Part shown: piece after piece, positions 15,358 to 24,305 of the stretch
How positions within the stretch are numbered: the first letter of the stretch is position 1
How the letters are laid out: every line of letters starts with the position of its first letter
Source of the DNA: Streptomyces sp. LX-29
GTDB taxonomy: Bacteria; Actinomycetota; Actinomycetes; Streptomycetales; Streptomycetaceae
NCBI RefSeq assembly: GCF_029541745.1
Contig: NZ_CP089746.1
Location: 6,395,559-6,459,558, forward strand
Direction of reading: 5' to 3'
Length of the DNA: 64,000 bases
Program-made: the position numbers and the translations under genes
The notes under the pieces: generated by a model
Seen by the model: only the letters and a program-made list of their open reading frames with translations
Told to the model about the DNA's origin: nothing
Databases searched by the model: none

Positions 15358-16311
15358 TCAGGCGCTCGGTCGCAGCGCGACCCGCGCGACCGTCCCCACC
15401 TCCAGAGCGACCCAGAGGGCGCCGTCCGGGCCCACCGTGAGGCCGTGCGGCTCGGCCGACGGGGTGGGCAGGTCGTATACCCGGACCTCTCCCTCCGGGG
15501 TGACGTGCCCGACGCGGCCGCTGCCCCACTCGGTGAACCAGCAGCCGCCGGCGGGGCCGGCGACGATGGCGTGCGGCCGGGCCGTGCGGTCCGGGAGCGG
15601 GAACTCGGTGATCTCGCCGTCGGTGGTGATCCGGCCGACCTGCCCGGCGCCGATCTCCACGAACCACAGCGCCCCGTCGGTCCCGGCCGCGATGCCCACG
15701 GGCGCCGCGCCGTCGGTGGGCAGCGGATGGAGCGCGACGGTCCCGTCCAGGCCGATGCGGCCGATGGCGTTCGCCTGGTTGAGGGCGAACCAGAGGGCGC
15801 CGTCGGGGCCCGCGGTGATCGCCGAGGGGAAGCCGCCGTCAGGCAGCGGGAACTCGGTGATCTCGCCGTCGGTGGTGATCCGGCCGATCCGGCCGGCGTT
15901 CGCCTCGGTGAACCACAGCGCCCCGTCCGGGCCCGTCACGATGCCGAACGGCCCGCACTCCGGCGTGGGCAGGTCGAACGAGGTGATCTCGCCGTCGGTG
16001 GTGATCCGGCCGATGCGATGGTCCCGGTAGCGGGTGAACCACAACGCCCCGTCCGGACCGGGGGTGATGACCGTCGGCCCGCTCTCGGTCGCCCCCAGCT
16101 CATGGGCGGTGAACCCGCCGTCCGGGGTCAGTCGGGCGATCCGCCCCGCCCGCACCAGCGTCAGCCAGAGGGCGCCGTCGGGGCCGGTGGTCAGGGCGTA
16201 CGGCCCGGCTTCGGGGCCGCCGGCCGGGATCTCCCGTATCTCGGGGTGGTCGTGCCCCGTGGTCTCGGGGTGGTCGTGGTGCATGGGGGAAGCGGTGTCA
16301 TGTGTCGTCAT
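15358..16311 (-). CDS. Virginiamycin B lyase (Vgb)-like beta-propeller protein
   Basis: A 317-aa protein with about seven repeats of GPDGALWFT...GRIGRITTDGEITEF, the seven-bladed propeller of streptogramin B lyases. Vgb linearises type B streptogramins by a Mg-dependent elimination. The catalytic pair H-x13-E (His270/Glu284 of the staphylococcal enzyme) is matched by His247 (ARPHAIV) and Glu261 (WFTEWG). However, the residue two before the His, a Glu metal ligand in Vgb as I recall it, is Arg245 here. The next blade has EPHG but lacks the paired Glu. Activity on streptogramins is therefore uncertain, and many such proteins are non-resistance propellers. The His-rich N-terminus is unusual. Confidence 0.75.
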   Translation of the reverse strand: MTTHDTASPMHHDHPETTGHDHPEIREIPAGGPEAGPYALTTGPDGALWLTLVRAGRIARLTPDGGFTAHELGATESGPTVITPGPDGALWFTRYRDHRIGRITTDGEITSFDLPTPECGPFGIVTGPDGALWFTEANAGRIGRITTDGEITEFPLPDGGFPSAITAGPDGALWFALNQANAIGRIGLDGTVALHPLPTDGAAPVGIAAGTDGALWFVEIGAGQVGRITTDGEITEFPLPDRTARPHAIVAGPAGGCWFTEWGSGRVGHVTPEGEVRVYDLPTPSAEPHGLTVGPDGALWVALEVGTVARVALRPSA

Positions 16312-16383
16312 CGGCGCCACCCTGACCGTTGCCGCGCGGACGCGCAAGTGCTTTTCCGGGTGGGCGCCTGACGTCCCGTCGAC

Positions 16384-17481: not shown

Positions 17482-17659
17482 GCGCGTGCTCCTCGCCACG
17501 CCGTGTGGGGCGCATCTGGGGGCGTATGGGGGTGCGGGTGGTCCGTGCCCTCCATGGTGGGCGGGCGGTGGCGGCCGCGCAGGCGGCGTGGTCCGTTCAG
17601 GCGACCCGGGCAGGCGCGGGGGGAGGAGGCGGATGAGGCGGAGGAGATGGTTCCGCGCT

Positions 17660-17673
17660 CGTACGAATGTTCG
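17660..17673 (+). promoter_or_regulatory. Candidate LexA (SOS) box upstream of dnaE2
   Basis: CGTACGAATGTTCG matches the Gram-positive/actinobacterial LexA box CGAACnnnnGTTCG at 9 of 10 fixed positions, and the flanking T and A extend the palindrome. It lies 85 nt before the dnaE2 start. Confidence 0.65.
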
Positions 17674-17757
17674 ATGATTGGTCTATGGTGGGAACAGGAA
17701 GGCCGAGCAGGGCAGGTCAGGGGGTGGACACGTACGAAGCGGCAGTGGGAGGTGCGG

Positions 17758-20700
17758 ATGCCGGGCTTCACGCATCTGCGCACCGCCTCCGGGTTCTCGA
17801 TGCGGTACGGAGCCGCGCACCCGGAGCGGCTGGCGCGGTGCGCCGCCGAGCGGGGCATGGACGCGCTCGCGCTGACCGACCGCGACAGCCTCGCCGGGGC
17901 GGTTCGCTTCGCCAAGGCGGCCGCCGCCGCCGGAGTGCGGCCGCTGTTCGGCGTCGACCTGGCGGTGCGCGAAGACCTGGCCGGAGACCCGGCCGCGGAC
18001 CCGGCCGCGGACCCGGCCGTCCGGGGCGGCTCCCCCACGGGGGCGCGGCGCCGCACACCGGCGCGCGGCGGGGCGTTCCTCGACGAGTCCGCTCCGCGCG
18101 CGGTCTTCCTCGCGAGGGACGGCGCGGCCGGCTGGGCCGCGCTGTGCGGCCTGGTCTCGGCGGCGCACGCCGGCCCGACGGAGGGCCCGCGGAGCCCCGC
18201 CCCCGTCCCGCTGCTGCACTGGGCGGACCTGGCGGGCGCGGCCGCCGCGGCGCGCGCCCCGCTGACCGTGCTGCTCGGCCCCGACTCGGACGTCGGCCGG
18301 GCGCTCGCCGCCGGCCGCCCCGACCTGGCCCTCCGCCCGCTGGCGCGGTGGCGCGAGCTGTTCGGCGCCGACGCGCTGCGGCTGGAGGCGGTCTGGCACG
18401 GCCGCACCGGCACCGGCCCCGGCTCGCTGCGGCTCGCCGCCCGCACCGTCGGCTTCGCCGCCGACCAGGGTCTGCGGGCCGTGCTCAGCAACGCCGTCCG
18501 CTACGCCGACCCCGGACAGGGCCCGGTCGCCGATGTGCTGGACGCCGCCCGCCGACTGGTGCCCGTCGACCCGCGCCGCCCCGAGGCGCTGGACGGCGGG
18601 GAGCGCTGGCTCAAGGGCACACGGGAGATGACACGGATCGCCGAGCGGATCGCGGAGGCCGCCGGGGACCGCCGGGCCGCCGCACGGCGACTGCTGGAGG
18701 AGACCGCGCGCACCGCCGCCGAGTGCCGCGTCGACCCCACCGCCGACCTGGGCATCGGCGGCATCCACTTCCCCGAGCCGCACCTGGTCGGCGCCGACCG
18801 GCGGGGCGCCGCGCGGGTGCTGCGCTCGCGCTGCGCCGCCGCCATGGTGCTGCGGGGCTACGACCGCGACGCGCGGCGGTTGCGGCGACTGGAGGACGAG
18901 CTGCGCACCATCGAACGGCTCGGCTACGCCAGCTACTTCCTCACCGTCGCCCAGGTCGTCGACGACACCCGCGCGCTGGGCATCCGGGTCGCCGCCCGCG
19001 GCTCGGGCGCCGGCTCGTTCGTCAACCACCTGCTGGGGATCGCCCACGCGGACCCGGTCGAGCACGGTCTGCTGATGGAGCGCTTCCTGTCGGTGCGCCG
19101 GGCCGCCCTCCCCGACATCGACATCGACGTCGAGTCCGCGCGCCGCCTGGACGTCTACCGCGCGATCTTCGACCGCTTCGGGGCGGAGCGGGTGGCGACC
19201 GTCGCGATGCCCGAGACCTACCGGGTGCGCCACGCGGTACGGGACGTGGGCGCCGCCCTGGGCATGGACCCGGCCGAGGTGGACCGGCTCGCCAAGTCCT
19301 TCCCGCACATCCGCGCCCGGGACGCGCGGGCGGCGCTGGTCGAGCTGCCCGAGCTGCGAGAGGTGGCGGCGGAGTCGCGCCGTAAGGGCTACGACCGGCT
19401 GTGGAGCCTGGTGGAGGCGCTGGACGGGCTGCCGCGCGGGATCGCCATGCACCCGTGCGGCGTGCTGCTCTCGGACGCCGGGCTGCTGGCCCGCACCCCC
19501 GTCGTGCCCACCAGCGGCGAGGGCTTCCCCATGGCGCAGTTCGACAAGGACGACGTGGAGGACCTCGGTCTGCTCAAGCTGGACGTGCTCGGTGTGCGGA
19601 TGCAGTCCGCGATGGCGCACGCCGCGCGGGAGATCGAGCGGGTCACCGGCCAGGCCCTGGACCTGGACGACCCGGCGCAGGTGCCGCCCGGCGACCGTGA
19701 CACCTACGAGCTGATCCGCTCCGCCGAGACGCTCGGCTGCTTCCAGATCGAGTCGCCGGGCCAGCGCGACCTGGTCGGGCGGCTGCAACCCACCACCTTC
19801 CACGACCTGGTCGTGGACATCTCGCTGTTCCGGCCCGGCCCGGTCGCGGCCGACATGGTGCGCCCCTTCATCGAGGCGCGGCACGGCCGCCGCCCGCCGC
19901 GCTACCCGCACCCGGACCTGGCGTACACGCTGCGCGAGACCTACGGCGTCGTCGTCTTCCACGAGCAGATCATCAACATCCTCGCCACCATGACCGGCTG
20001 CGAGCGCGACCTGGCGGACGAGGCGCGGCGCGCCCTGTCCAGCCCCGAGCGGCAGAGCCGGGTGCGGGCCTGGTTCTGGGAGCGTGGGACGCGGCGCGGC
20101 TACGACCGGGAGGTGCTGACGCGCACCTGGGAGATCGTCGAGGCGTTCGGCAGCTACGGCTTCTGCAAGGCGCACGCCGTCGCGTTCGCCGTGCCGACGT
20201 ACCAGTCCGCCTGGCTCAAGGCCCACCACCCGGCGGCCTTCTACGCCGGGCTGCTCACCCACGACCCCGGGATGTACCCCAAGCGGCTGCTGCTGGCGGA
20301 CGCGCGGCGGCGCGGGGTGCCGATCCTGCCGTTGGACGTGAACCGCTCCGACACCGCCTATCGGATCGAACTGATGTCCGGTTCGGGTGTCGGCGGCGGG
20401 CCCGGTGGTCCGGGGCGCCTCGGCATCCGGATGGCGCTGAGCGAGGTGCACGGCATCAGCGAGGCGGAGGCCGGCCGGATCATCGCCGGACAGCCGTACA
20501 CCTCGCTCCAGGACCTGTGGCGGCGCGCCCACCCCGGGCGACCGGTCGCCGAACGACTCGCGAACGTGGGCGCGCTGGACGCCTTCGGCGCCAACCGCCG
20601 CGAGCTGCTCCTGCGCATCGCCGAGCTGCACCGACAGCAGACGTCCGGGCGGCGCGGCGCCACCGGCGCGGGCCAGCTCCCGCTCGCCGAGGCCATGTCG

Positions 20701-21354
20701 CCGGCCCCCGCCGGCCTGCCCGACCTGGACGAGCGGGAGCGGCTCGGCGCCGAGCTCGGCGTCCTCGGCATGGACGTCTCCCGTCACCTGATGGGCGACC
20801 ACCAGGGGTTCCTGGAGGAGCTGGGGGTGACATCGGCGCGGCGGCTGCGCGGGGCGCGGCACGGGGAGACGGTGCTGGTCGCCGGGGCCAAGGCGGCCAC
20901 CCAGACGCCGCCGGTACGCTCCGGCCGCCGGGTCATCTTCACCACCCTCGACGACGGCACCGGCCTGGTCGACCTCGCCTTCTTCGACGACAGCCACGCC
21001 GCCTGCGCGCACACCGTCTTCCACTCCTGGCTGCTGCTCGTGCGCGGCGTGGTCCAGCGCCGCGGCCCGCGCAGCCTCAGCGTGGTCGGCTCCGCCGCGT
21101 GGAACCTCGCCGAGCTCATCGAGGTGCGGCGCACCGGCGGGCTGGAGCAGGTGGCCGCGCTGCTGGCGCGGCGGCCCCCGGCCGCCGAGGAGGGCGCGGT
21201 GGACGAGGCGGCCGCGGCCGCCGGCACGGACCGCCGTATCCACCTGTCCACCGGCTACGAGCTGCACCCCTGGGCCGACCTCCGGCCCGCCGGCGACACC
21301 TCGGCCACCGGTCGCAAGCTGTGGCACTCGAGTCCGGGGAGCGCGGGCCGATGA
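17758..21354 (+). CDS. dnaE2: Error-prone DNA polymerase III alpha subunit DnaE2
   Basis: A 1198-aa C-family polymerase starting at ATG 17758 (GGGAGG upstream); the open frame extends far upstream but only as shadow of the previous gene. An N-terminal PHP domain begins HLRTASGFSMRYGA, where the second His of the usual HxH metal pair is Arg, as in DnaE2-type degenerate PHP sites. The polymerase core includes RGSGAGSFVNHLLGI and the catalytic LPDIDIDVESAR (DxD). A helix-hairpin-helix region and a C-terminal OB fold (ETVLVAGAKAATQTPP ... FTTLDDGTGLVDLAFF) follow. Normal DnaE1 is essential elsewhere; DnaE2 performs SOS-induced mutagenic translesion synthesis with ImuA/ImuB partners. It overlaps the next gene by ATGA. 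Confidence 0.95.
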   Translation: MPGFTHLRTASGFSMRYGAAHPERLARCAAERGMDALALTDRDSLAGAVRFAKAAAAAGVRPLFGVDLAVREDLAGDPAADPAADPAVRGGSPTGARRRTPARGGAFLDESAPRAVFLARDGAAGWAALCGLVSAAHAGPTEGPRSPAPVPLLHWADLAGAAAAARAPLTVLLGPDSDVGRALAAGRPDLALRPLARWRELFGADALRLEAVWHGRTGTGPGSLRLAARTVGFAADQGLRAVLSNAVRYADPGQGPVADVLDAARRLVPVDPRRPEALDGGERWLKGTREMTRIAERIAEAAGDRRAAARRLLEETARTAAECRVDPTADLGIGGIHFPEPHLVGADRRGAARVLRSRCAAAMVLRGYDRDARRLRRLEDELRTIERLGYASYFLTVAQVVDDTRALGIRVAARGSGAGSFVNHLLGIAHADPVEHGLLMERFLSVRRAALPDIDIDVESARRLDVYRAIFDRFGAERVATVAMPETYRVRHAVRDVGAALGMDPAEVDRLAKSFPHIRARDARAALVELPELREVAAESRRKGYDRLWSLVEALDGLPRGIAMHPCGVLLSDAGLLARTPVVPTSGEGFPMAQFDKDDVEDLGLLKLDVLGVRMQSAMAHAAREIERVTGQALDLDDPAQVPPGDRDTYELIRSAETLGCFQIESPGQRDLVGRLQPTTFHDLVVDISLFRPGPVAADMVRPFIEARHGRRPPRYPHPDLAYTLRETYGVVVFHEQIINILATMTGCERDLADEARRALSSPERQSRVRAWFWERGTRRGYDREVLTRTWEIVEAFGSYGFCKAHAVAFAVPTYQSAWLKAHHPAAFYAGLLTHDPGMYPKRLLLADARRRGVPILPLDVNRSDTAYRIELMSGSGVGGGPGGPGRLGIRMALSEVHGISEAEAGRIIAGQPYTSLQDLWRRAHPGRPVAERLANVGALDAFGANRRELLLRIAELHRQQTSGRRGATGAGQLPLAEAMSPAPAGLPDLDERERLGAELGVLGMDVSRHLMGDHQGFLEELGVTSARRLRGARHGETVLVAGAKAATQTPPVRSGRRVIFTTLDDGTGLVDLAFFDDSHAACAHTVFHSWLLLVRGVVQRRGPRSLSVVGSAAWNLAELIEVRRTGGLEQVAALLARRPPAAEEGAVDEAAAAAGTDRRIHLSTGYELHPWADLRPAGDTSATGRKLWHSSPGSAGR

Positions 21355-23525
21355 CCCACGAGCGATGGTCCGCCGACCCACGCCCCACGGCCCCGGCCGC
21401 ACCGCCGGTCGGCCGCCCGCCGGCCGCCGACCGGACCCGCGCCGAGGCTCCGGACCTCCGCCACGACCGGCCAGGCCGGCCAGGCGGGCCCGACCGGCCC
21501 GTCGGCTCCGGTGCGGACTCCGGCCGTGGTGCGGACTCCGGGCATGGCATGGACTCCGGGCGCGGTGCCGGCTTCGGCCGTGGTGCGGACTTCAGCCGTG
21601 GCGCGGACTCCGGGCATGGCATGGACTCCGGGCGCGGTGCCGGCTTCGGCCGTCGTGCGGACTTCAGCCGTGGCGCGGACTCCGGGTGGGAGCGGGCACG
21701 GGCCCGTGGGCGCGACGGCGATGTCGAGCGTGGTCGTGAGGGCGCCGGTGGTTCCGGGGCGGCCGTGGTCGCCCCGCTCGACGCGGGCCGTGTCTGGGAG
21801 CGGAGCGCCGTCGGCGGCCGTGGCGGCTGGGGCGCGGGGGCCGAGCGGGACGGGGGGCGAGTCCCGGGCCGGGCCCGGAACACCGCTGCCTCTGCCGCCG
21901 CCGGTGCCGGCGGCGCCCCGGCGCGGGCGCGCGGTGGCGAGCGCCGTCCGGTCGGTGGGGCGGGGGACCGGCTGCCGGTGCGTTCGGGGCGGGGCGGCGG
22001 CGGGCGGACGGAACCCGGGGTGCTCTTCGTGCGCTTCCACCCGACCGGGGACGAGGCGGCGCTGGGGGCCGACACCTACCAGGCGCTGCTGGGACTGCTG
22101 GCCGGGGTGACACCGATCGTGGAGGCGCTGCCGCCCGACGCGGCGCTCGTCGACGTCAGCGGGGCGCTGCGCTACTTCGGTCGGGACGCGATCGGGCTGG
22201 CCGGGATCGTACGGGTGCGGGCGCTGGCCCGGTACGGCGTGGACTGCACCATCGGGGTGGCCGCCAACCCGCTGCTCGCCCGGATGGCCGCCGCCGACAG
22301 CCCGCGCGGGGCGATCCGCGCCGTGCCCGCCGATCCGGACGCGGTCGCCGCCTTCCTCGCGCCCAAGCCCGCCGCCGCGCTGCACGGCGTCGGCCCGGCC
22401 ACCGCCCGCGCCCTGGGCGCGTACGGCCTGGACAGCGTGGAGCGGATCGCGGCCACCCCGCTGCCCACCCTGCAGCGCATCCTGGGCGCGGCCGCCGGCC
22501 GCCGGGTCTACGAGGGCGCGCACGGCCTCGACCCGGCGCAGGTCACTCCGAACGCCCCGGCGCGCGCGATGGCTCTGGAACACCGCTTCGAGCTGGACGA
22601 ACTGGACCCGGTGCGGCGGCGCCGGGCGCTGCTCGCCCTGACCCACCGGCTGGGCGCCGCCATGCGCCGGGAGCGGCAGGCGGCCACCGCGCTCACCCTG
22701 ACCGTCCGCTACGCCGACCGCTCCACGACCACCCGCGGTCACACCCTGCCCGAGCCCACCGCCCACACCCCGGCCCTGACCGCCGCCGCCTACCGGTTGC
22801 ACGAGGCCCTCGGGCTGCAACGCGCCCGCGTCCGCTCGCTCGCGCTCCGCGCGGATCTCACCGACGCCCGGCGCGCCGTCCAGCAGCTGACCTTCGACCC
22901 GCTGGACGCCCGCCGTCGACGCGTCGAGGCCGCCATGGACCGCGCCGAGGCCCGCTACGGGACGGGCGCGGTCGGGCCCGCCGCCACCTACCGCCGCCGA
23001 AGCGCGTTAGCAGCGGCGGAAGGCGTAGCCCTCCTCGCCCGCCGGCCGCACGTCCAGGTCCCGGCTCACGATGGACAGCCGCCCTCCCCAGGCGGCGCAC
23101 GCCTTCCGGAAGTCCGCGTCGCTGTACTCGATGACGAAGACGCGGTCGCGGTACGCCTCCGCGTACTCCTCGCACTCGTCGTAGCGGCCGCACTCCTCCA
23201 CGACGGCGAAGTCGAAGCCGATCGAGGCGCGTTCGGGCAGCAGCTCGGTGGTGTTCTTCTGACCGATAGCCAGCCCGGCCCGGTGCGCCCGGGCGGCCAG
23301 CAGCCGGGCGAAGGCGATGTTGTCGCCCTTGTCGAGCCGGCCGTCGGAGCGCTCGTAGGAGTCGAGGTTGTCGGGCTCCAGGGCCTGGTACCCGCTGCGC
23401 GCGCAGCCGTCGATCCACCGGCCGACGATCGCGGCCAGCTCGGTCCGCTTGGCCGCGGTCGAGATGTCGAGGAGCGGCTCGTCCCAGTCCTCGTCGACGA
23501 TCAACTCCCCGTCGGCGTCGCGTAG
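21351..23525 (+). CDS. Catalytically degenerate Y-family polymerase (ImuB-like), long overlap at 3' end
   Basis: ATG 21351 overlaps the dnaE2 stop (ATGA), implying translational coupling. Residues 1-220 are disordered, Gly/Arg/Asp-rich and contain a 24-aa tandem repeat. Residues 222-548 match Y-family polymerases: palm, the VDVSGALRYFG strand, the HhH (KPAAALHGVGPATARALGAYG), little finger and VQQLTFDPLDARRRR. The catalytic Asp of the DxDxFFA motif is replaced (VLFVRFHP) and the SxDE motif lacks Glu (PPDAALVDVSG), so nucleotidyl transfer is not expected. This is the hallmark of ImuB. The clamp-binding motif (QLSLF-like) is degenerate. Recognisable domain ends near 23000; the remaining 170 or so codons are antisense to the GH114 gene, entered through a TTA codon at 23007-23009, so the true C-terminus is uncertain. 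Confidence 0.8.
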   Translation: MTHERWSADPRPTAPAAPPVGRPPAADRTRAEAPDLRHDRPGRPGGPDRPVGSGADSGRGADSGHGMDSGRGAGFGRGADFSRGADSGHGMDSGRGAGFGRRADFSRGADSGWERARARGRDGDVERGREGAGGSGAAVVAPLDAGRVWERSAVGGRGGWGAGAERDGGRVPGRARNTAASAAAGAGGAPARARGGERRPVGGAGDRLPVRSGRGGGGRTEPGVLFVRFHPTGDEAALGADTYQALLGLLAGVTPIVEALPPDAALVDVSGALRYFGRDAIGLAGIVRVRALARYGVDCTIGVAANPLLARMAAADSPRGAIRAVPADPDAVAAFLAPKPAAALHGVGPATARALGAYGLDSVERIAATPLPTLQRILGAAAGRRVYEGAHGLDPAQVTPNAPARAMALEHRFELDELDPVRRRRALLALTHRLGAAMRRERQAATALTLTVRYADRSTTTRGHTLPEPTAHTPALTAAAYRLHEALGLQRARVRSLALRADLTDARRAVQQLTFDPLDARRRRVEAAMDRAEARYGTGAVGPAATYRRRSALAAAEGVALLARRPHVQVPAHDGQPPSPGGARLPEVRVAVLDDEDAVAVRLRVLLALVVAAALLHDGEVEADRGAFGQQLGGVLLTDSQPGPVRPGGQQPGEGDVVALVEPAVGALVGVEVVGLQGLVPAARAAVDPPADDRGQLGPLGRGRDVEERLVPVLVDDQLPVGVA
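21531..21686 (+). repeat. 72-bp in-frame tandem repeat in the ImuB-like gene
   Basis: Two copies (21531-21602 and 21603-21674) differing at only one or two bases, plus the first 12 bases of a third. They encode a 24-residue GADSGHGMDSGRGAGFGR-type unit. The period is a multiple of three, so copy-number change keeps the frame. Confidence 0.9.
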
Positions 23526-23993
23526 CAGCAGCTCGGGGTGGTTCTTCCGCCACCAGCCGACCGCGTCGGGCTGGGCCTGGAAGGTGTTGACGTAGCAGAC
23601 GTTGTAGGCGCCCTTCGCGGGCGGGGCCGTGCGGTCGCGGGCCACGGCGCGCACCCCGGCGGGCGGCGGGTAGGGGCCGCCGATCTGGTAGTCGAACGCC
23701 ATGTCGGCGGTGGGCGCCTCGACCACGCGGTCCGCGGCGGGCGGCGCCGTGGTGGAGCTCGGCGGGCGGGTGCGGTCGGAGCCCTCCGACCGGCCGCCGT
23801 CGGAGCAGCCGGTGGCCGTCATGGCGAGCGCCAGCACGCCGATCGCGACGGCCGCCGCGCCGGCCGGTCGACGGCGCCGGCGCCCCGCCGGGGCCTCACC
23901 CGCCGATCCGCGTTCGCCGTGCGGCGTCCCCGTCCATGCCCGGGTCCCCGTCCGCTCCCGGCTCCGCGCCCGTCCCCGCGCCCGCATCCGCAT
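23007..23993 (-). CDS. GH114 endo-alpha-1,4-polygalactosaminidase-like lipoprotein
   Basis: A 328-aa predicted secreted lipoprotein. A long basic n-region precedes a hydrophobic stretch ending at lipobox AMTATGC (Cys63), then a Thr/Pro linker. The catalytic TIM-barrel-like domain runs from about residue 95 (FDYQIGGPYPPP) to the end, with GH114 marks: YVNTFQAQ, LLDISTAAKR, YQALEPDNLDSY and FVIEYSD. The enzyme class hydrolyses alpha-1,4-galactosaminogalactan in microbial exopolysaccharide. The start ATG 23993 follows GGGGGG; an internal start cannot be excluded given the long n-region. Its 3' half lies opposite the reading frame of the ImuB-like gene. Confidence 0.88.
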   Translation of the reverse strand: MRMRARGRARSRERTGTRAWTGTPHGERGSAGEAPAGRRRRRPAGAAAVAIGVLALAMTATGCSDGGRSEGSDRTRPPSSTTAPPAADRVVEAPTADMAFDYQIGGPYPPPAGVRAVARDRTAPPAKGAYNVCYVNTFQAQPDAVGWWRKNHPELLLRDADGELIVDEDWDEPLLDISTAAKRTELAAIVGRWIDGCARSGYQALEPDNLDSYERSDGRLDKGDNIAFARLLAARAHRAGLAIGQKNTTELLPERASIGFDFAVVEECGRYDECEEYAEAYRDRVFVIEYSDADFRKACAAWGGRLSIVSRDLDVRPAGEEGYAFRRC

Positions 23994-24305
23994 ACCCCCC
24001 GTATTCACCGCATCCGTTCCGATAAGGATCAAGATTCCATACGCGCGCCGGGGACGCGCCGCCCGCACCCCGGCGACGCCCCTCGGCGCGGGGTCGGCCG
24101 TTCTGCCAGGACAGCGAGAGTTCGGCACCCTGATGGCGATTTCCGGCCCATGGTTCCTGGATGTCCCGTGAGGATTCCGTACGGCTTTCTTCACCAGCCG
24201 ATGGCTGGATGCGGATGCTACTGACTCGTAAGTTAATTAACGCGCAACACTCTTGTGATCCGGATCGCAGGTGCGCAGCTTTCAACCCCCCATCGAGGAG
24301 TTCCT
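23994..24305. other. Divergent promoter region between GH114 and lipase genes
   Basis: A 312-bp spacer, AT-richer near 24170-24260. It contains the perfect 10-bp palindrome GTTAATTAAC (24232-24241), 65 nt before the lipase start, a candidate operator. No ORF is supported. Confidence 0.4.

Follow-up and report, generated by a model that had tools for sequence, protein, structure and literature searches.

How can a Y-family protein whose active site is gone serve an error-prone replicase? The question is raised by a pair of overlapping genes in Streptomyces sp. LX-29, whose genome is a single contig of 8.23 Mb (NZ_CP089746.1). The window analysed here, a stretch of 64,000 nucleotides (nt) at positions 6,395,559 to 6,459,558 of that contig, contains dnaE2 and, directly downstream, the gene of an inactive Y-family polymerase (PolY), hereafter iPolY. 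A preliminary description of the window had read the pair as a LexA-controlled mutasome of two components with an ImuB-like second member. We find that this second member is not ImuB and that, like every aligned member of its clade, it has lost the whole fingers subdomain as well as catalytic residues; its role is probably that of a non-catalytic adaptor in an SOS-induced DnaE2 complex.

The dnaE2 gene, its LexA box and its coupled partner

The dnaE2 gene (17758-21354, plus strand) encodes an error-prone C-family DNA polymerase of 1198 residues. It is intact and full length: the PHP, palm, finger, helix-hairpin-helix and OB domains are recognised by Pfam and NCBIfam models, and the catalytic motifs PDIDID (residue 452) and KLDVLG (residue 607) are preserved, which bears out the earlier assignment of this gene. 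For the comparison with other genomes the C-terminal 484 residues were used as query. The identity of this part is 70-78% with the DnaE2 proteins of the nearest relatives that have iPolY and, across the sampled Streptomycetaceae, 52-78% with DnaE2 of PolY-linked genomes, as against 30-37% with DnaE2 of canonical imuA'-imuB-dnaE2 cassettes. Grouped by percent identity, the LX-29 protein appears to belong to the DnaE2B type and not to the DnaE2A type that is linked to ImuA and ImuB.

Upstream of dnaE2 the preliminary description had placed a LexA box, and one is present at 17659-17674 (plus strand). Its sequence, TCGTACGAATGTTCGA, differs by one mismatch from the Streptomyces consensus TCGAAC-N4-GTTCGA (PMC9380542), and it lies 84-99 bases 5' of the dnaE2 ATG, its first base being at -99. 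The box alone is not selective, since sites with at most one mismatch number 21 in the 8.2 Mb of the genome and 15 for a reversed control; yet its place in front of dnaE2 is conserved. Among 74 testable dnaE2 loci, the best upstream site is within one mismatch of the consensus in 63 and within two in 72, nearly all of them at -74 to -128; of 296 control segments, each 300 bases long and taken from within dnaE2, 56 come as close as two mismatches. A -10-like element, TATGGT (17684-17689, plus strand), stands at constant spacing from the box and is kept in an alignment of 72 upstream regions. In S. venezuelae, LexA binds in front of dnaE2, and mitomycin raises the expression of dnaE2 30.6-fold and that of dinP 13.7-fold (PMC9380542). 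The LX-29 locus is similar to this damage-induced dnaE2-dinP operon (vnz_06640-06635) in having a LexA box 5' of dnaE2, but two LexA-bound boxes are reported there and only one clear box is found here. We infer that LexA binds the 17659-17674 box in this strain also.

The two genes are joined by an ATGA in which the stop codon of dnaE2 overlaps the start codon of iPolY (21351-21354, plus strand). This coupling, already pointed out in the preliminary description, turns out to be a property of the family: dnaE2 and iPolY adjoin in 79 of 80 Streptomycetaceae loci, all 79 with an ATGA or GTGA overlap and 78 of them in frame with the Y-family core, and a count over 30 loci gave ATGA in every one. 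Such an overlap suggests that the two proteins may be produced in stoichiometric amounts. We also evaluated the co-occurrence of the two genes in 120 Streptomycetaceae genomes, scoring PolY as a match above the DinB background. Every genome with DnaE2B has such a match (92 of 92), and 27 of the 28 genomes without DnaE2B have none; in several genera the PolY that accompanies DnaE2B is apparently active.

Each gene of the pair is also present on more than 100 plasmid records, and the three records inspected, S. clavuligerus pSCL3 among them, are linear and carry both genes. Plasmid records with dnaE2-iPolY include NZ_CP117867.1, NZ_CP108986.1 and NZ_CP086232.1 besides more than 100 others, and in the plasmid annotations the pair appears as dnaE together with a "helix-hairpin-helix domain-containing protein", a "hypothetical protein" or a "DNA polymerase". 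Solitary fingerless iPolYs were noticed as well, in stretches from which this dnaE2 is absent (L058, L059, L064-L068 and L072), several of them near contig ends. Three of these (L058, L059 and L067) have a LexA-like box of their own, and Ku genes (Pfam PF02735) adjoin L066 and L068.

A Y-family core without fingers

The open reading frame of the second gene (21351-23525) is made of three parts, and only the middle one, from 22020 to about 22999 on the plus strand, is the Y-family protein that had been announced; the rest is a low-complexity tail and an antisense read-through. In this core we compared the catalytic positions with those of the strain's own DinB (Pol IV; C1:898431, L001), with which it has in common the palm core, thumb and little finger at 28-32% identity. 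The Asp of the first strand is replaced by Arg (VRF instead of VDM) and the Glu of the SxDE motif by Ala (LPPDAALVD), while the Asp of the latter motif is retained. Both losses had been noted previously and are confirmed by the alignment. DinB, by contrast, retains DMD, SLDE and the fingers and should be active.

The preliminary description had also assumed that the Y-family fold is kept, and this does not hold. In iPolY the first strand is followed directly by the helix before SLDE, so that about 66 residues, corresponding to the fingers subdomain, are gone. The Pfam IMS match accordingly covers only positions 78-147 of 148 (IMS_C is matched too), and on solved chains of the DinB and Dpo4 types a profile of the iPolY family starts to match only at residues 76-83. 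An AlphaFold2 model of the core, with a mean predicted local distance difference test score of 89.6, retrieves Y-family structures at Z 20-23, and its residues 1-177 align with residues 5-239 of the 4dez chain over 170 residues at 2.2 A. The fingers are absent in every aligned member of the clade, and the family alignment has invariant residues in the thumb and the little finger. An active Y-family polymerase has three catalytic carboxylates and a fingers subdomain; iPolY has lost two of the former and the whole of the latter, and on the evidence of alignment and model it is predicted to be unable to polymerise.

That the core is nevertheless maintained was evaluated with Streptomyces sp. SAJ15, whose iPolY core is 99% identical: 13 of 15 substitutions fall at third codon positions, which indicates purifying selection. 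The N-terminal tail (21351-22019, plus strand, 223 codons) behaves differently. It contains an 18/72-bp tandem repeat at 21510-21686, and its length is hypervariable: in relatives the core starts anywhere from -10 to 740 nt after the stop codon of dnaE2, with the frame kept in 78 of 79. The tail of SAJ15 is 354 nt shorter overall; all four gap runs are multiples of three, as is the repeat unit itself. Substitutions in the tail show no third-position bias and its GC content by codon position is not coding-like. A non-coding origin was considered on these grounds and set aside because about 79 loci preserve the reading frame; the tail thus looks translated but free in sequence.

At the other end, the frame continues through a C-terminal extension of about 170 codons (23000-23525, plus strand) created by the loss of a stop codon. 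The frame ends 319-380 codons from the core start in 79 other loci and reaches 501 only in LX-29 and SAJ15; a sequencing error was ruled out as the cause, SAJ15 having the same lost stop. The extension runs antisense to a GH114 gene recognised by Pfam (23007-24194, minus strand), an overlap of about 519 nt (23007-23525) that is common to SAJ15, and GC content by codon position in 23000-23525 favours the minus strand. On the other side of the pair, at 15358-16347 on the minus strand, lies a repetitive gene that may encode a beta-propeller protein, by eye similar to streptogramin lyase.

Relation to ImuB and to the published DnaE2B-iPolY system

A dead Y-family protein beside an SOS-type dnaE2 recalls the ImuA'-ImuB-DnaE2 mutasome of M. 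tuberculosis, canonical cassettes of which are present in other Streptomycetaceae (L078-L081 and L083; L079 and L081 were compared here). Some genomes, such as G090 and G105, appear to carry both DnaE2 types. The likeness goes no further: the LX-29 pair has no ImuA', ImuB-C or fingers, and its DnaE2 is only distantly related. A profile of ImuA' built from the Streptomycetaceae cassettes found no match in the LX-29 genome, and it detected ImuA' in the four control genomes (G116, G099, G073 and G102), one of which is outside the profile set, with E values from 1e-93 to 1e-115; the absence of an adjacent imuA or imuA', as first described, thus extends to the whole genome. Four relatives (G196, G154, G005 and G088) are likewise without ImuA'. 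For ImuB-C, the best match in the genome was at E 0.06 and not convincing, with a query that was run without a positive control, and we hold this absence less firmly than that of ImuA'. The only Y-family genes of the genome are DinB and iPolY, and recA is the only RecA-family gene found. In a maximum-likelihood tree iPolY stands apart from ImuB on a long branch (100/100). We therefore reject the ImuB identity that the preliminary description had given it.

Could the locus be a canonical mutasome that has recently lost ImuA'? A LexA-controlled dnaE2 with a dead Y-family neighbour is what such a history would leave. The reading is already contradicted by the missing ImuB-C and the tree position of the partner, by the low identity of canonical DnaE2 from the same family and by the ImuA'-less state that the four relatives have in common, and we regard it as highly improbable.

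Judged by its sequence, the LX-29 pair is instead the Streptomyces-type DnaE2B-iPolY module, which has already been described; our comparison went through orthologues from many Streptomyces species, with S. coelicolor DinB2 itself (CAB50953.1) left out. The relevant passages of PMC6511836 and PMC12926913 present DnaE2B with an inactive, scDinB2-like PolY as a two-gene variant of Streptomyces proposed to work with RecA, the second of them, independently of our work, from gene association and AlphaFold modelling. An earlier review lists the same arrangement as an "imuBC cassette" (PMC3901139). With the scDinB2-like group (S. coelicolor DinB2/DnaE2; Timinskas and Venclovas 2019, 2026) the LX-29 locus has in common the inactive PolY beside DnaE2, the lack of ImuA and ImuB in the genome, the presence of RecA, a motif resembling the RecA N-terminus and the distribution in Streptomyces; it differs by the very long N-terminal tail and the lost stop. 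The passages of the published accounts that treat scDinB2 call it inactive and do not mention missing fingers.

What is new here is the loss of the fingers throughout the clade and a stepwise series that leads to it: the partner is not merely dead. In the tree the fingerless proteins form one clade (support 99/99), and a dead but full-length PolY of genome G011, ATGA-coupled to DnaE2, branches beside it with support that is modest (84/75). In other genera a methyltransferase gene separates DnaE2B (52-60% identity) from an apparently active PolY downstream. As to single loci, L179 (G011:C110:20955-21878) and L176 encode dead DnaE2-coupled PolYs (HVRLEDLP, LLPGDRAVLDL) that keep the fingers and appear intermediate. 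An S-adenosylmethionine (SAM) methyltransferase and an apparently active PolY follow dnaE2 at L167-L175, L177, L180-L189 and L191-L194, where the PolYs have D-M/L-DAFYA and LDEA/MDEA motifs and a C-terminus resembling the N-terminus of RecA.

Possible role of the pair and rival explanations

Two C-terminal motifs of iPolY bear on its possible role. QLTFD (22884-22898, plus strand), with Q289, L290 and D293 invariant in the family alignment, is a candidate sliding-clamp-binding motif; we take it as such from the equivalent position of clamp motifs in DinB proteins. The following segment, RRRRVEAAMDRAEARYGTGAVGPA (22911-22982, plus strand), has its best match in the strain's own RecA with the N-terminal segment REKALDAALAQIERQFGKGAVMRM, at a score of 24.5 that none of 5000 shuffles reached. 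The core ends shortly after this motif, and in relatives no more than about 60 residues follow it. The C-terminus thus resembles the oligomerisation segment of RecA, with the reservation that almost the same score is reached by a chance segment.

With good but not full confidence we propose that the pair forms an SOS-induced DnaE2 complex in which iPolY is a non-catalytic adaptor. DNA damage would activate RecA and release LexA from its box, and the two overlapping genes would be expressed jointly. DnaE2 would then carry out error-prone synthesis, while iPolY would hold the DNA and DnaE2 by its thumb and little finger, contact the sliding clamp through the QLxFD motif and dock on RecA by its RecA-like segment, RecA taking the place of ImuA. 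Both these contacts and the lesion-bypass role of the pair are what we infer from the features described.

Several points weigh against this proposal. An unrelated segment of DnaE2 scores 23.0 in the RecA comparison, and the likeness to RecA is short and prone to effects of composition. Deletion of dnaE2 (imuC) in S. coelicolor reportedly left survival and mutagenesis under ultraviolet light (UV) unchanged (PMC3901139, citing Tsai 2012). Mutasome function in Streptomyces is unproven; of the two-component mutasome first suggested, the gene content is real and already published, and the function is not established. The same lack of a UV-mutagenesis phenotype would suit a decaying pseudogene, or an antimutator acting as a non-productive decoy on clamp or DNA instead of a mutasome subunit, as would the loss of the active site, the fingers and, in LX-29, the stop codon. 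Purifying selection on the core, the family-wide pairing with dnaE2 and the invariant residues of thumb and little finger speak against this explanation, which we consider quite unlikely.

It has also to be asked whether the linear chromosome is what the module chiefly serves. In that case iPolY (DinB2) would help to complete the patching of telomere ends, with DinB1 or in its place, by recruiting another polymerase and not by synthesis of its own. Linear replicons of Streptomyces reportedly cannot be replicated without at least one of DinB1 and DinB2 (PMC4513846, citing Tsai 2012); the DinB2-type proteins have no fingers despite this reported need, and the three plasmid records inspected are all linear. 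On the other hand, 27 of the 120 sampled genomes are without both genes, SOS control suits damage tolerance better than a constitutive step of replication, and the dnaE2 deletion reportedly had no defect in end patching (PMC3901139). A mainly telomeric role therefore seems unlikely, if somewhat less so than decay. If DinB2 is fingerless, as its relatives suggest, the reported need in linear replicons cannot be for synthesis by DinB2. A fuller scenario, in which the fingers were lost in a single event after catalysis, iPolY has become purely an adaptor that links DnaE2, the clamp and RecA, and the part ascribed to Streptomyces DinB2 at telomeres is therefore non-catalytic, is offered only tentatively, and we think it rather doubtful.

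For the DinB2 group these results sharpen a conflict in the literature, where it is described as a translesion polymerase that can replace DinB1 at telomeres, although all aligned members are without the parts needed for synthesis. Beside DnaE2B, one family provides a graded natural series of active PolY, dead full-length PolY and dead fingerless PolY, and with this series it becomes possible to ask what an error-prone replicase gains from a Y-family subunit that is dead.

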